Positions 17,910 through 59,606 of a stretch of DNA of 64,000 bases are shown one piece after another. The stretch comes from a bacterium (lineage in GTDB: Bacteria > DRYD01): contig JAUQQQ010000004.1 of NCBI GenBank assembly GCA_030549815.1, positions 20,038 to 84,037 of the forward strand, in the 5' to 3' direction. Under the pieces are notes generated by a model that ran no database searches, was not told the origin of the DNA, and saw nothing but the letters and a program-made list of their open reading frames with translations. How positions within the stretch are numbered: position 1 is the stretch's first letter; the number at the start of each line of letters is the position of its first letter. Position numbers and translations under genes: made by a program.

Positions 17910-18491
17910 TTATGTAGAAGTTTTTTGGCTACTTACAAGTAATACTTTTTGAAGCAAGAAAATGAGTTCTTCAATTTTTCCTTTTAAATCAGCACCCTCC
18001 TTAACATCGTAGATAAAAAATTGTTCTAAAACTTCAAAACCACAAAATTCGAATATAACATGCTGATTAATTTTTTTTATTGCAGACTCTAAGGAATTTT
18101 GCTTATAAACTTCTTCTTTTCCTCCAAAGGTAGATATAACAATACATTTTTTACCTTTCAATAAAGGTAAGGTTTGTCCATCTTCATCGATACCATAAGC
18201 AAATCCGTAAGAAAATACTTTATCGATATATCCTTTTAGGATGGCAGGCATAGAGCCCCACCACGTTGGATAAATAAAAATCAATAAATCACTACCTTCG
18301 ATAAATTTTTGTTCTTCTCTTACCTTTTCATCATGCTTATCAAAAAACAAAACAGGGTCAAATTTCTCTTCATATAAATCCCGAATCCTAAAATCAATCC
18401 CTTTATTTTCCAAAAACTCCTTGACTTTTAATAATATTTGATAATTAAAGCTTTTTTTACTTGGATGTGCAAAAATTATTAAAACTTTCAT
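17910..18491 (-). CDS. NAD(P)H:quinone oxidoreductase, flavodoxin-like fold
   Basis: A 193-aa member of the NQO1/MdaB/KefF family (flavodoxin_2). The FMN/FAD-binding N-terminus VLIIFAHPSKKSFNYQI is clear, followed by the diagnostic FIYPTWWGSMPAILKGYID motif near residues 92-110 and a STFGGKEEVY region. Such enzymes transfer two electrons from NAD(P)H to quinones or nitro/azo compounds. KefF-type members activate K+ efflux systems, but the CPA2 antiporter of this window is not adjacent. It is the third gene of the set beginning at 21334. Confidence 0.87.
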   Translation of the reverse strand: MKVLIIFAHPSKKSFNYQILLKVKEFLENKGIDFRIRDLYEEKFDPVLFFDKHDEKVREEQKFIEGSDLLIFIYPTWWGSMPAILKGYIDKVFSYGFAYGIDEDGQTLPLLKGKKCIVISTFGGKEEVYKQNSLESAIKKINQHVIFEFCGFEVLEQFFIYDVKEGADLKGKIEELIFLLQKVLLVSSQKTST

Positions 18492-19096: not shown

Positions 19097-21334
19097 TTAT
19101 ACCATCACTGACAATCCCATTCCTCCATTTAGGTATCCTGCAAAAATACCGAGATTACCTCCCAATGGCATACCAAAAGTCCCCATATCCCCCATAAATT
19201 TTCCGAGTGCTGCTCCCATAACTCCACCAACCAAAGCTCCACCCAAAGCTCCTGCGATTGCTCCAAATGGTCCTCCCATTAGCATTCCCATACCCATTCC
19301 TAATAAAGCTCCACCGAAAGCTCCACGAGCAGCACCTGCACTTGCAGGTGAAATGTTAGTCAAATTCTCTCCTACTGCCTGAGATACAAGTTGCTTTACT
19401 TCAGGTCTCAAATCTATTTTCTGGGCGATTTGAATATATATCTGCTTAAGTAAAATTTTTGCTTGAGGATTAGGATTATTCATAACATGTTGAGCAAATT
19501 GAGTTAAAGCTTGCTCAGCTTGCTGTTTTATATTAGTTGGTCTGAAAATTCCACCTGTTGCTGCACCCAATGGTCCTCCTAAACCTACACCCATTAAAGA
19601 AGGCATCATTGGATTAAGCGAAAACATTCCTCTATTCATACCCATAATACTGCCGCCCATCAATGTCATAGCACCCATCATCATCATAGACATACCTAAC
19701 ATAGGATTCATCATTGACAACATCATTCCACCCATTAACATCGAAGCACCTAAATTCATCATCATATTTGGCATTTGCATAGGTGGATTAACAATAGGAA
19801 ATCCAACATTTGGCATCCCAATTCCTGGGAAACCTATCCCTGGCATTCCCATTCCTGGGAAACCTACTCCAGGCATCCCCATTCCTGGAAATCCCATGTC
19901 TGGAAAACCTAATCTTGGCATACCTGGAAATCCTATTCCTGGAAAGCCCATACCCGGTAGACCAATTCCTGGGAAACCAATTCCTGGCATCCCCATTCCT
20001 GGTAACATAGGATTCTCACCAAGCATCCTTAATCTCATCATTATCAATTGCATTAACTGCTGATTTGTAATCAAGTTATTAATTGTTTGCTGTTTTCTAT
20101 CCCTAATTTCTGCTAAATTATTTCTTATGTTTTGCAAATGTTGCATAACTTTTTGCTTAAGTTTTTCTAGGAAGTTTATTTTCTTATCCATTAGGTTTTG
20201 CATTTTATTCATGTGGTTAGCTTTGTTTTGCATCAATTTAGCTTTTTGTTGAAGGACTTTAGCAGCTTTTTTAAGCATTTTAGCAACCATTCTTAATGCT
20301 TTTGCAGCCATTCTCAAAGCTGCAGCTATAGCAGGTCCTACCAGGGGGATAGCCTGTGCTGCATTGGCAGCAGCTTCCAAACCTTGAGCAGCTTGTTCCA
20401 TAACAATAGACATCTTATCAACGGCTTTACTAACAGTGTCCAATATTTTAGAAAATCCCTTAAACATTACCTCCTTACCCTTAAAGAACATTTTTCTCAT
20501 TTTGGCAAAAGATTGAGATTGATTAAATTTCATGAGATCCATTTGTAATCTCATCATTTTTTGCATTTCGAAATTTTCTGCCTGATTAAGAATATTAAGC
20601 CTTCCAAGCAAATTTTGATGATTTTGATAAGAAGAATTCAACATGTTAGCCAATTGATTAACATCATGTATTTGCATTACAAAACCCATTTGAGTAGATC
20701 CCAAAAGTTGGTTAGCCATCATTCCAAAGAATGAACCCATTAAAGACCCTACACTAAAATTATTCATAAAAGGATTTTGAGAAATCATATTGTCAGGAAT
20801 AGAGATATTAAAAGCGGTTAGTAAAAATCTGAAATCCCCTTGTAAATTAGGGAATTGAGCCAGTAATTTCGCGCCTTTATTATACAAAGCATCCTTAGCT
20901 TCATTTGAACCAGCAAAAACTCCTAACTGTTGATTTATTCCACTTTCGGTCTTAGATTTCAAATTTAAATGCTTAGATTTCAATTTTTTAAGATTATTTA
21001 AACCTTTGGTATACATTTTTATTTGTTTTTTAATCTGGTTAATTAACCCCCAAGGTTTTTTCTTTTTACTTAATAAGCTACTAAGTTTTTGTTTCAATGA
21101 TGATATTTTATTCGTTAAAGAAGAGATACCACCATCAAATTTTGCAATAGTTTGCGAAAAATTTTGTTGTAAGACATTAGGAGTAGATTCAATTTTAAAA
21201 TTTTCACCAAAACCTAAATCTTCCAAAGGTTTGTCACTTTTTATTCCTTGCTCAACCTGTTTTATATCGTTTTGTGTAACATCACCACTTATTCTACCAA
21301 CACCAAAAAACGAAAAACTATCGTTTATCATCAT
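19097..21334 (-). CDS. Large protein with elastin-like PGxG pentapeptide repeats
   Basis: A 745-aa protein of unknown function. The frame is open from 21367, but AGGAGGTGA (21350-21342) places the start at 21334. Parts in order: a Lys-rich helical region with coiled coil (about 75-135), a long Ala/Lys/Met helical stretch with a hydrophobic centre (about 300-395) recalling pore-forming or translocator-like helices, thirteen pentapeptides P-G-[IMV]-G-[FML] (about 443-513), a Met-rich hydrophobic segment (515-575), and a C-terminal glycine-zipper region (660-725). The pentapeptides match the VPGxG pattern of elastin. No N-terminal signal peptide is visible. First gene of a three-gene set. Confidence 0.75.
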   Translation of the reverse strand: MMINDSFSFFGVGRISGDVTQNDIKQVEQGIKSDKPLEDLGFGENFKIESTPNVLQQNFSQTIAKFDGGISSLTNKISSLKQKLSSLLSKKKKPWGLINQIKKQIKMYTKGLNNLKKLKSKHLNLKSKTESGINQQLGVFAGSNEAKDALYNKGAKLLAQFPNLQGDFRFLLTAFNISIPDNMISQNPFMNNFSVGSLMGSFFGMMANQLLGSTQMGFVMQIHDVNQLANMLNSSYQNHQNLLGRLNILNQAENFEMQKMMRLQMDLMKFNQSQSFAKMRKMFFKGKEVMFKGFSKILDTVSKAVDKMSIVMEQAAQGLEAAANAAQAIPLVGPAIAAALRMAAKALRMVAKMLKKAAKVLQQKAKLMQNKANHMNKMQNLMDKKINFLEKLKQKVMQHLQNIRNNLAEIRDRKQQTINNLITNQQLMQLIMMRLRMLGENPMLPGMGMPGIGFPGIGLPGMGFPGIGFPGMPRLGFPDMGFPGMGMPGVGFPGMGMPGIGFPGIGMPNVGFPIVNPPMQMPNMMMNLGASMLMGGMMLSMMNPMLGMSMMMMGAMTLMGGSIMGMNRGMFSLNPMMPSLMGVGLGGPLGAATGGIFRPTNIKQQAEQALTQFAQHVMNNPNPQAKILLKQIYIQIAQKIDLRPEVKQLVSQAVGENLTNISPASAGAARGAFGGALLGMGMGMLMGGPFGAIAGALGGALVGGVMGAALGKFMGDMGTFGMPLGGNLGIFAGYLNGGMGLSVMV
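19796..20008 (-). repeat. Tandem 15-bp repeat encoding PGxG pentapeptides
   Basis: About thirteen imperfect 15-bp units encode variants of PGIGF, PGMGM and PGVGF, with one longer unit (PGMPRLGF). Variation is partly synonymous, so the array is not a very recent expansion. Such arrays can change length by slippage. Confidence 0.85.
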
Positions 21335-40022: not shown

Positions 40023-41243
40023 ATGATAGACAAGATAACTTTAAACTTAAATAATACAACAGTCCAAAATCCAACAACACAAGTAAAAAGAGAAAATCAA
40101 ACAGCAGAAATAGTAGATAAGGTTGAAAATGGTGGGGAGCCAGAAAAAAAGAAATGGTTAGTTTTACTATACTCTGCAGGAGACAATAACCTATACAGCT
40201 ATCTCTTTGATGACTTAGATGAATTAGAAACTGTAGGTTCGGATAAAAACACTCACATAGTTGCATTAGCAGACCAAGGAAAATATGGAACAAAATGGAA
40301 AGGCGCAAAAACTTTCTATTTGCAACCTGATCAAGAAAAAGGGAAAATAAACTCTCCCGTATTAGAAGATTTAGGGCAAGTTAATTTAGCAGACCCTGAA
40401 TTTATGGGACAAAAAATTGGTGAAATCATCAAAAAATATCCCGCTGATTACGTAACTGTTATTATCTCAGATCATGGAGGAGGATGGGAAGGTGCAGTAG
40501 AAGATGACAGCCCTAATTACAAATTCATGAGTTTAAGTGAAATAAAACAAGCTCTACAAAAAGCAGTAGAAGTTGGTGGTAAAAAGATAGACGTTTTAGG
40601 ATGGGATGCATGCTTAATGGCTATGGCTGAAGTTGGTTATGAATTAAAAGATGTAGCAAAATACATGGTTGCAAGCGAACAATTAGAAGGGGCAGATGGT
40701 TGGCCTTATGGAAGCATATTTGGTAGTACACTTAAAGACGTGTTAAAAACTGCTCAACAAATGATGCTTGTCAATATAGATGTAGAACCTAAAGATTTAG
40801 CAACAATGATGGTTAAAGCAGCACAGAATTTCACTCACTCTATCAAAACATTGTCAGCAGTAGATTTAGAAAAAGCTCAAAATTTAGCAACTAAAACAGA
40901 TGAATTAGCTCAAGCTATACTAAACGATACTTCCTCGTTTAACAAAATAAAAAACGCAATAAGAAATACTGAAAAGTTCTACGGCAGTTTCAGAGATCTT
41001 GGACATTTTGCAAAGTTAGTCCAAAATTTAGATGTAAGTGATGAAATAAAACAAAAAGCTGCAGAATTAGAAAAAGCATTAAACGAATACGTAGTTAAAG
41101 AATTCCATACTTCAGCTCATCCCAATGCTACAGGTGTATCAGTAGAAATGCCAACATGGGGCAGCCCTTCATATTCTTACCAAGATACTTCTTTCGCAAA
41201 AGATACCAAATGGGACGAAATGCTTAGCAAAGTTAGTGGATAA
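40023..41243 (+). CDS. Clostripain-family (C11) cysteine protease
   Basis: A 406-aa protein whose core starts WLVLLYSAGDNNL (about residue 42). The catalytic His lies in SDHGGGWEG and the catalytic Cys in WDACLMAMAE, the paired motifs of peptidase family C11, followed by ASEQLEGADGWPY. C11 proteases cleave after Arg or Lys and usually are secreted. Here no signal peptide is visible; the first 35 residues are a polar Asn/Thr-rich leader. It may be intracellular or leave by another route. A strong terminator follows, so the gene is monocistronic. Confidence 0.88.
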   Translation: MIDKITLNLNNTTVQNPTTQVKRENQTAEIVDKVENGGEPEKKKWLVLLYSAGDNNLYSYLFDDLDELETVGSDKNTHIVALADQGKYGTKWKGAKTFYLQPDQEKGKINSPVLEDLGQVNLADPEFMGQKIGEIIKKYPADYVTVIISDHGGGWEGAVEDDSPNYKFMSLSEIKQALQKAVEVGGKKIDVLGWDACLMAMAEVGYELKDVAKYMVASEQLEGADGWPYGSIFGSTLKDVLKTAQQMMLVNIDVEPKDLATMMVKAAQNFTHSIKTLSAVDLEKAQNLATKTDELAQAILNDTSSFNKIKNAIRNTEKFYGSFRDLGHFAKLVQNLDVSDEIKQKAAELEKALNEYVVKEFHTSAHPNATGVSVEMPTWGSPSYSYQDTSFAKDTKWDEMLSKVSG

Positions 41244-57465: not shown

Positions 57466-58326
57466 ATGAACATAGGGTTAAATACAAGCTCATATTTATA
57501 CCACTATAATTCTTTATCAGTAGAACAAAAATCACAGGTTAATATGATAGCTTCTTCATTGGGAATTAGTATTGAAGAACTATCATTTTACTTTGGAATG
57601 ATTAGCTTCAATTTAGGCAACATTAGCTTTTTTGCTTTTGTTTTTTTAATTTACCAAAAGCCACAGATATTAAATAATCTAAGAATGATATATGCTAACA
57701 TGCAAGCACAAGCAAATTTCAATATAGGTTTTATTGGAGGATTCAATAATACTCCTCAACCTTATCCACTGCCGTCTAATCCAGAACTACCTACACCATT
57801 ACCATCAAATCCAGGGGAATCAAACTGTGTAAAATCGCAAATTGGGGACGCATTCCTAACAGCATTCTCTCCACAAGATTTAGCTAAATTGCAAAATGGA
57901 GAAAAAATAGATCTAAAAAATGGGATTATCTCAAGCATAAACAACCTTAAAGAATTTGATAAAAACAATGATGGAAAATTGACAGGCGATGAACTAAAAG
58001 ATCTTCAAGTTGCAGTAGATAAAAATAAAGACGGGCAAATAGAAAAAGGAGAATTAGCTAAAGCATTAGAAGCAGGAGTTAAAGAAATAGATATTAATAG
58101 TGGAAAGGTAACAACAAATGATGGAAAAGAATTTAACATAAACCAAGGAAACGTAAATGTAGGTAAAGATGGGAAAACAGATAATAAACCTGCAATAACC
58201 ATAGATACAGATAAAAATGCAGGACAATCAAAAGATGGAAATAATAGATTAGAACCAGCACCATCTCCACAGTTAGGAAACAGCCCAAATAGCACAAATA
58301 GTAGCAGTGGTAGCGGTGGTAAATAG
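57466..58326 (+). CDS. EF-hand calcium-binding protein with Pro-rich and disordered parts
   Basis: A 286-aa protein: a helical, partly hydrophobic N-terminus (about 30-65), a Pro-rich linker (95-118, repeating PLPSNP), then two consecutive EF-hand loops, DKNNDGKLTGDE (165-176) and DKNKDGQIEKGE (185-196), with all Ca ligands. The C-terminal 90 residues are Gly/Asn/Asp/Ser-rich and probably disordered. No signal peptide is visible. The pairing recalls calmodulin or dockerins, but dockerin surroundings are absent. It has a strong ribosome site (AAGGAGGG). Confidence 0.85.
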   Translation: MNIGLNTSSYLYHYNSLSVEQKSQVNMIASSLGISIEELSFYFGMISFNLGNISFFAFVFLIYQKPQILNNLRMIYANMQAQANFNIGFIGGFNNTPQPYPLPSNPELPTPLPSNPGESNCVKSQIGDAFLTAFSPQDLAKLQNGEKIDLKNGIISSINNLKEFDKNNDGKLTGDELKDLQVAVDKNKDGQIEKGELAKALEAGVKEIDINSGKVTTNDGKEFNINQGNVNVGKDGKTDNKPAITIDTDKNAGQSKDGNNRLEPAPSPQLGNSPNSTNSSSGSGGK

Positions 58327-58340
58327 CAACCTATCAGCAC

Positions 58341-59180
58341 TTACATTGTAAGAACCATTATTTTTTCAATATCACCGTTTATATCGTAGAGTAAATCGGA
58401 TATAAGTGATAAGTTTGATATATCCTCTTCCTTTAGTTTTTCCAATTTCTCTACTACCTTATGCAAAATTTCGATACCTCCCAATTTAGCCTTGAAATAT
58501 AAAGGTATATTTTGATCAAATTTTATATTATCCAAAATAGAATAAAATCTATTATCTTCTTTTAAAGAAACTTTTGTTAAACCAACTATGGATAAGTCAA
58601 TTAGTTGTACAAATAAATCAGAATTTTTTAAAAGCGCAGCCTGGAATAAATTCCTTATAAAAGGTACTTTAGTTTCCAAATCGACAAAAACTATATTACA
58701 ATTCTGGCATACATTATTATTTAACTCTAATCCACAGCATGGACAAAATAATGTAAAATTCATTTTTAATGTCAGAATATAATCATAAACATATCTTACA
58801 TCTACATATAAATCATGTATTTTTTCAAAGTTTTCTAAATTGATAATTATTTGAGAAATAATTTCTGAAGTAGTTTCTCTTAGATAAAATAATTCCTCTT
58901 TTTGTAGATATTCAACAGATGACAATATTTCTAATTCCAAATCCAAAAATAACCATTCAATAAACTCTTTGTCTACCATTTTAAAATTCAAATAATCTGA
59001 TAAAAAGTAATCTATAAAAATAGGCTGCTTAATCCTTCTTAAAAAATCAATTTTATTTTCTAAGAAATATGGTTTAACATCAAGTTTTAGAGAGTTATAT
59101 ATATTCCAAGCTGCTAATTTAAGCTGATTAAAAGAGGAAGAGATAAGATTCCATAATTCATTATTCTCGATTAAATTCAA
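58341..59180 (-). CDS. Zinc-ribbon helical protein, 3' part of an interrupted frame
   Basis: From the TTG at 59180, preceded by AAAGGGG, this is 279 aa: helical N-terminal region, a zinc ribbon CPCC...CQNC (C146, C149, C158, C161) and a C-terminal helical domain. The segment after the ribbon (TKVPFIRNLFQAAL) parallels the protein at 60796 (NSPFVNEILFLAE), so the two are paralogues. The frame continues open upstream for 64 codons to an in-frame TAA (59373-59375) and beyond it into the 77-codon frame from 59606. Initiation at the TTG, readthrough or a broken gene are all possible. Function unknown. Confidence 0.7.
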   Translation of the reverse strand: MNLIENNELWNLISSSFNQLKLAAWNIYNSLKLDVKPYFLENKIDFLRRIKQPIFIDYFLSDYLNFKMVDKEFIEWLFLDLELEILSSVEYLQKEELFYLRETTSEIISQIIINLENFEKIHDLYVDVRYVYDYILTLKMNFTLFCPCCGLELNNNVCQNCNIVFVDLETKVPFIRNLFQAALLKNSDLFVQLIDLSIVGLTKVSLKEDNRFYSILDNIKFDQNIPLYFKAKLGGIEILHKVVEKLEKLKEEDISNLSLISDLLYDINGDIEKIMVLTM

Positions 59181-59372
59181 TTTTTCTTCCCCTTTATAGA
59201 TATAAATTTGATCCGATTCAAAAGATATTCTATTGATTACAGAAGATAAAGTATCTGCTAAGATATTAGTTTGGTTTATTTCTTCACAAACTTGTTCCTC
59301 TTCTAAAACTTTATCTTCTAAAGAACTTATATAAGAAAGGAAATTATTTATAAGTTGAATCTTTGAGTTAAT

Positions 59373-59606
59373 TTAATTCAGTAAAATTTGTATCTTTTGT
59401 ATAGATTGTTCTCCTTGATTTTTTATTAAATCTTCAATTACATCAACTTCATTAGCCCATAAACTTTTTTTTATTACTTGTTGATAATACAAAGATATAG
59501 CTGTGGGAGAATCTGCATCTAAGTTGTATAATTCATTAATTATTTTAACAGTTGGCAAGGAAAAAAGGTCTATGAATAGGAAGCTACTTACATTTGGTTC
59601 GTACAT
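59373..59606 (-). CDS. 77-codon frame behind tRNA-Gln, 5' part of the interrupted gene
   Basis: The ATG at 59606 lies 23 nt after the tRNA-Gln 3' end, with no ribosome site. The 77 aa are helical and acidic (SLWANEVDVIEDLIKNQGEQ). The TAA at its end is in the same frame as the 64 open codons and the 279-aa frame that follow, so without it one protein of about 421 residues would be made. As a standalone gene it resembles nothing I know. Confidence 0.5.
   Translation of the reverse strand: MYEPNVSSFLFIDLFSLPTVKIINELYNLDADSPTAISLYYQQVIKKSLWANEVDVIEDLIKNQGEQSIQKIQILLN

Follow-up and report, generated by a model that had tools for sequence, protein, structure and literature searches.

The window, a 64,000-nucleotide stretch of DNA, belongs to a Candidatus Calescibacterium-like MAG (1.59 Mb, 90% complete; phylum Calescibacteriota), whose relatives inhabit hot springs near 80 °C (PMC4791363). 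Its minus strand carries a gene for a leaderless protein of 745 residues (P0001), a gene for an acidic protein of 195 residues (P0002), and a gene for an NAD(P)H oxidoreductase in close succession (Table 1). The open reading frame of P0001 proposed in the original prediction was borne out, stop codon included, and the Shine-Dalgarno sequence AGGAGGTGA lies 5′ of it. No signal peptide was seen in P0001 by inspection. The net charge of P0001 is +38 to +39, according to the choice of start codon. A promoter and terminator scan returned counts equal to those of shuffled sequences and was uninformative. The oxidoreductase gene is probably co-transcribed with the pair in the window and at locus L015, as judged from the gene arrangement.

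Table 1 Features of the P0001–P0002 locus and flagellar-type genes of the window genome G000. Positions are those of the window unless a contig is given.
Feature	Position	Strand	Remarks
P0001 CDS, leaderless, 745 aa + stop	19097-21334	-	Predicted pI 10.2, net charge +38
Shine-Dalgarno AGGAGGTGA of P0001	21342-21350	-	7 nt 5′ of ATG; direct sequence reading
Basic helical hairpin, P0001 residues 53-136	20927-21178	-	AF2 pLDDT ~76-89 over most; kept in ortholog alignment
Long two-helix hairpin, P0001 residues 225-438, Ala/Lys/Met-rich	20021-20662	-	AF2 pLDDT ~65-84
Hydrophobic apical turn, P0001 residues 327-338, around IPLVGPAIAA	20321-20356	-	Near-invariant in ortholog alignment; turn in AF2 model
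PG array, P0001 residues 445-512, 10 strict + 3 degenerate pentads	19799-20002	-	AF2 pLDDT ~25
Met-rich hydrophobic stretch, P0001 residues 517-580	19595-19786	-	Helices in AF2 model, low confidence
Conserved helical block, P0001 residues 599-664	19343-19540	-	Conserved in orthologs reaching that far
Glycine-zipper tail, P0001 residues 669-715	19190-19330	-	Helices in AF2 model, low confidence
P0002 CDS, 195 aa	18502-19089	-	pI 4.05, net charge -39; 7 bp after P0001 stop
NAD(P)H oxidoreductase (Flavodoxin_2)	17910-18491	-	Pfam PF02525, E 6.7e-45; 10 bp after P0002
Flagellar-type export, rod, and C-ring genes of G000	C6:59763-61784, C9:94835, C22:10520, C7:131075, C1:10112

The composition of P0001 follows the predicted order of an Ala/Lys-rich helical part, a PG block, a Met-rich part, and a glycine-zipper tail. 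Met accounts for 24% of residues 523–620 and Gly for 34% of residues 681–745; the highest 19-residue hydropathy of the zipper tail is 1.82. Two parts had been overlooked, namely the upstream hairpin (residues 53–136), which AF2 predicts with confidence, and the conserved helical block (residues 599–664) that separates the zipper tail from the Met-rich part.

Predicted fold of P0001 and similarity searches

We modeled P0001 with AF2 from a three-sequence alignment (mean pLDDT 53, pTM 0.31). Two helical hairpins were predicted. The longer one consists of helices 225–326 and 333–438, with arms of ~100 residues and the hydrophobic IPLVGPAIAA sequence at their turn. The array was modeled as unstructured.

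Against Pfam, NCBIfam, PHROGs, and the sequences of the PDB we obtained solely weak coiled-coil or low-complexity matches, none of them convincing, and no enzymatic domain was recognized in P0001 by scans of Pfam and the other libraries. A fold search of the PDB gave no match at E ≤ 0.001. The earlier statement that no described bacterial system has this architecture agrees with the sequence-library searches; by the libraries used, the pair lies outside described families. Our literature search found no paper on P0001 and no report of a natural bacterial elastin-like polypeptide (ELP), which is weak evidence. P0001 resembles known kinds of protein, namely those with xPGxG arrays and leaderless, helical ones that act on membranes and have a dedicated acidic chaperone, in a combination for which we found no report.

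In its model, P0001 has in common with alpha pore-forming toxins (SmhB/AhlB/MakA) a long antiparallel helical hairpin. In VIA-align, SmhB reached a Z of 13.7 over 209 residues (rmsd 4.3; identity of matches 4–7%). Unrelated coiled coils tied with it, Z being 13.9 for an SMC arm and 13.7 for a chemoreceptor. The arrangement is generic; matches of the modeled long hairpin are not diagnostic and give no evidence of a toxin. Among phage tape measure proteins, PHROG 33360 matched residues 329–503 (E 7.5e-7), which are coiled-coil and low-complexity sequence. No tail genes were recognized by eye in the list of window ORFs, and the neighbors look like housekeeping genes. A viral origin of P0001 was rejected, as no relative was found in viral contigs.

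P0001 might also be the coat of a storage granule in the manner of phasins or oleosins, a reading suggested by its Ala/Lys amphipathic helices and hydrophobic P/M-rich segment. However, Pfam contained no phasin family matching P0001, and we regard this reading as extremely improbable. A coat of PHA granules in particular was rejected, since PHA synthase (PhaC_N) was found in 0 of 7 genomes (71–90% complete).

Conservation of P0001 and variation of the PG array

Each of the other five family genomes (G001–G005) has an ortholog of P0001, with 55–71% identity. In a profile search of 386 genomes, a full-length relative was absent from the other 380, where matches covered the array only, so that full-length orthologs are confined to the five family members among the genomes searched. 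The matches in six unrelated genomes (G058, G063, G126, G277, G279, and G378) span the array alone (profile positions ~445–518) and were rejected as compositional.

Between P0001 and the ortholog at L015, the hairpins are 74–78% identical (the long hairpin 78%) and the helical block of residues 599–664 is 80% identical. For the close pair L015/L016, dN/dS was 0.06 for each hairpin, a mark of strong purifying selection, against weaker constraint in the array (0.13) and the Met-rich part (0.22). Because these values range from 0.06 to 0.22, the P0001 gene is, on codon evidence, under purifying selection. The tail had a dN/dS of 0.54 in a more distant comparison and was the weakest-constrained part there. 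By identity and alignment, the conserved part of P0001 is the hairpins, not the array.

The array had been described as thirteen P-G-[IMV]-G-[FML] pentads. The block is real, while the number applies only when the three degenerate pentads (PRLGF, PDMGF, and PNVGF) are added to the ten strict ones. When the residues of P0001 were shuffled 20,000 times, strict pentads averaged 0.03 per trial and never exceeded 2, and TRF detected the array at the DNA level (19811–20002).

Repeat number among relatives ranged from 8 to 21 units per ortholog, and the motif was variable. P-x-h-G units numbered 13, 8, 9, 10, 13, and 21 in the six orthologs, and x was Gly in 10, 3, 6, 3, 12, and 21 of them, respectively. 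Pro-Gly was kept in 3/8 units at L015 and 3/10 units at L004, so the elastin motif is not maintained across orthologs. The arrays of G001 and G003 have not maintained Pro-Gly, and Pro-Pro is the commonest unit in G001. The arrays of G004 and G005 contain 12 and 21 PG units with lag-15 DNA identities of 0.90 and 0.77, the pattern of arrays homogenized and expanded through tandem duplication. Array length was 63–121 residues among orthologs, with the flanks retained. Across these orthologs, the period and the hydrophobic/Gly/Pro composition of the array persist but the elastin-type Pro-Gly turn does not; in repeat number and motif, no other feature of P0001 is as loosely constrained. Such variation looks like that of a length-tolerant linker selected for composition, without disproving an elastic role.

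Like elastin and ELPs (VPGXG), P0001 has near-tandem strict xPGhG pentads (ten of them), predicted disorder, and hydrophobic guest residues. In contrast, the residue preceding Pro-Gly is F, M, or L in P0001 and V in elastin and ELPs. Also unlike elastin and ELPs, the array of the P0001 family occupies only 63–121 residues of a mainly helical protein of 745–832 aa, that of P0001 is devoid of cross-link lysines, and Pro-Gly has been lost from most units in two orthologs. Hydrophobic guest residues lower the transition temperature of elastin as a general trend (PMC8125372). Since the guest residues of the P0001 array are all hydrophobic and its relatives live at ~80 °C, the array would probably be permanently collapsed and not a switch.

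The putative acidic partner and neighboring genes

The acidic 195-aa neighbor named in the original prediction is present, and its AF2 model is helical (mean pLDDT 65). Among the 68 ORFs of the window, P0001 is the most basic (+38 to +39) and P0002 the most acidic (-39), the next acidic being -17. An acidic helical protein with 24–53% identity to P0002 is encoded 3′ of the ortholog in G001, G003, G004, and G005. As the contig of G002 ends within the ortholog gene, five pairs are readable, including that of the window. Net charges are opposite in all five: +38/-39, +58/-49, +37 (partial)/-45, +36/-33, and +27/-34. In the stretches of G004 and G005 that were read, the orthologous pair again stands at or near the charge extremes. 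The proposal that the neighbor is a partner of P0001 thus gains support from five kept pairs with opposite computed charges, and the case for a physical partnership is circumstantial but consistent. It counts against a partnership that coiled coils, like acidic disordered tails, are widespread.

The Flavodoxin_2 gene was not found adjoining the pair in the ortholog neighborhoods of G001, G004, or G005. In the latter two genomes, the pair clusters with genes for a leaderless coiled-coil protein of 413–416 aa, an EF-hand protein, and a Zn-ribbon-like helical protein. The coiled-coil protein is weakly similar to the P0001 hairpin (BLASTP E 4e-6, a value subject to low complexity). In the window, homologs of the EF-hand and Zn-ribbon-like genes are found at 57466–58326 (+) and 58341–59600 (-), where a leaderless EF-hand protein lies beside a Zn-ribbon-like helical protein; the Zn-ribbon-like gene of the window has an in-frame stop near the N-terminus that is absent from the copies of relatives. 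The window also encodes a clostripain-family (Peptidase_C11) protein with an Asn-rich N-terminus and no evident signal peptide at 40023–41243 (+).

We tentatively favor, at rather less than an even chance, the reading that P0001 is a leaderless cationic helical protein active at membranes or other surfaces, which is kept soluble by its acidic partner and whose PG array serves as a tether. P0002, whose gene apparently shares a transcript with that of P0001, would neutralize the positive charge of P0001 and, like a dedicated chaperone, may keep it soluble until use. The long hairpin would project its hydrophobic tip for binding or insertion, the tail would insert into, or oligomerize on, a membrane or another hydrophobic surface, and the PG array would be a flexible, length-tolerant tether joining the tail and the hairpins. 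We infer binding of P0001 to P0002, solubilization, membrane association, and the tether role from the opposite charges in 5/5 readable pairs, the 7-bp spacing of the window's two charge extremes, the hairpins being the most conserved part, the modeled long hairpin with its hydrophobic apex, an array modeled as unstructured and variable in length between kept flanks, and the absence of a recognized enzymatic domain. Transmembrane substrates of type III systems have an intermediate hydrophobicity and stay soluble until delivered (PMC9993115). The hydrophobicity of the P0001 tail (19-residue maximum of 1.82) is likewise intermediate by calculation and fits such soluble-until-delivered proteins. 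On the other hand, the fold model draws on three sequences and has low scores (mean pLDDT 53, pTM 0.31), and the putative membrane insertion is at odds with a tail that is rich in Gly and Met and lacks strong hydrophobicity.

The opposite charges suit complex coacervation equally well. Cationic P0001 and acidic P0002 would then form a complex coacervate, to which the XPGXG array would add elastin-like hydrophobic cohesion. The extreme and opposite charges, the excess of pentads over chance (10 against a shuffle maximum of 2), and the homogenized, expanded arrays of G004 and G005 (12 and 21 PG units) argue for such a condensate. However, the arrays are short, Pro-Gly is not maintained in G001 and G003, conservation falls on the hairpins rather than the array, and a segment with hydrophobic guest residues should be permanently collapsed at ~80 °C. 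We consider the condensate rather unlikely. The idea of an elastic or phase-separating assembly, from which the study of this gene started, is weakened by an array that is the least constrained in repeat number and motif and has hydrophobic guests at that temperature; an elastic or coacervate function of the array is possible but not favored.

Alternatively, the cationic hairpins could bind DNA or RNA, with the acidic partner as a nucleic-acid mimic or antagonist. The pI of ~10, the Lys-rich helices, the acidic partner, and an hfq-like gene adjoining the pair in G004 and G005 are consistent with this. However, a hydrophobic array, a Met-rich part, and a zipper tail would be unexpected in a nucleic-acid-binding protein, and the library scans matched no family of that kind; this alternative is very unlikely.

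Flagellar-type export genes and implications

In a further reading, P0001 would be exported by a flagellar apparatus that lacks flagellin, either as a surface protein or as one resembling translocators, and P0002 would act as its chaperone. FlhA was found in 7/7 genomes, FliG in 5/7, and the stretches read contain FlhB, FliH, FliI, FliJ, FliE, rod proteins of the FlgB/C and FlgF/G types, and a weak FliK. Flagellin (Flagellin_N) was detected in the control genomes but in 0 of 7 genomes here (G000–G006), the seven being 71–90% complete and a divergent flagellin being able to escape such a search. The search revealed no long protein of the FlgE/FlgK type; a short hook protein (~270 aa) may be present.

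Leaderless glycine-zipper proteins adjoin other flagellar genes, as at L072:12438–13549 and L073:4596–5216, beside flgB-flgC-fliE and a transglycosylase-fliK-flgF-flgG cluster. A conserved 100-aa protein with a W-L...RQQQ.EP N-terminus and a GGGG C-terminus is encoded directly upstream of fliH-fliI-fliJ, and longer relatives with its C-terminal part (ORFs of ~240–370 aa) occur in 7/7 genomes. The family genomes also encode a second family of 229–245 aa with a P/G-rich linker and a zipper tail, whose N-terminus in G000 agrees with that of the 100-aa protein at 18/34 positions (score 102, against at most 39 for shuffles). The two proteins concerned, of 100 aa and 241 aa, are encoded at L071:18182–18484 (-) and L032:5712–6437 (-). 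A 177-aa G/I/L/M-rich protein of G004 with a long glycine-zipper run (L036:3517–4050, -) has a similar compositional style.

These zipper proteins, the N-terminus common to the 241-aa and 100-aa proteins, the export genes found without flagellin, and the leaderless nature of P0001 favor export. However, P0001 is distant from the flagellar genes, has no N-terminus of the 100-aa protein type, and its first 62 residues gave no convincing match in the seven genomes; a shared N-terminal export segment was rejected, none being found among their other proteins. Compared with SctE translocators (YopB/IpaB/AopB) and their class II chaperones, P0001 is likewise a leaderless coiled coil with moderately hydrophobic segments and an adjoining gene for a helical partner, in a genome with a flagellar-type export apparatus. 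Unlike SctE, P0001 is unlinked to export genes and was not matched by SseC (PF04888) in a Pfam scan that listed matches to E = 1, P0002 has no match to TPR or type III chaperones in the Pfam and library scans, and no injectisome was seen. Export of P0001 by a flagellar-type route is speculation, which we judge unlikely. Still less probable, in our estimate, is the wider proposal that Calescibacteriota retain a flagellin-less machine (FlhA/FlhB, FliH/I/J, FliE, rod, and FliG) for exporting leaderless glycine-zipper or Pro/Gly-rich hydrophobic proteins, including P0001 with its chaperone P0002, and not for swimming. Flagellar motility has been inferred from basal-body and export genes (PMC4791363), and the view that these bacteria swim would change if the export lead were true.

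P0001 and P0002 constitute an uncharacterized conserved two-gene family of an uncultivated phylum. The natural XPGXG array of P0001 varies in length and motif between close species while the rest of the protein is held, which provides a natural test of how much of such an array is required for function.
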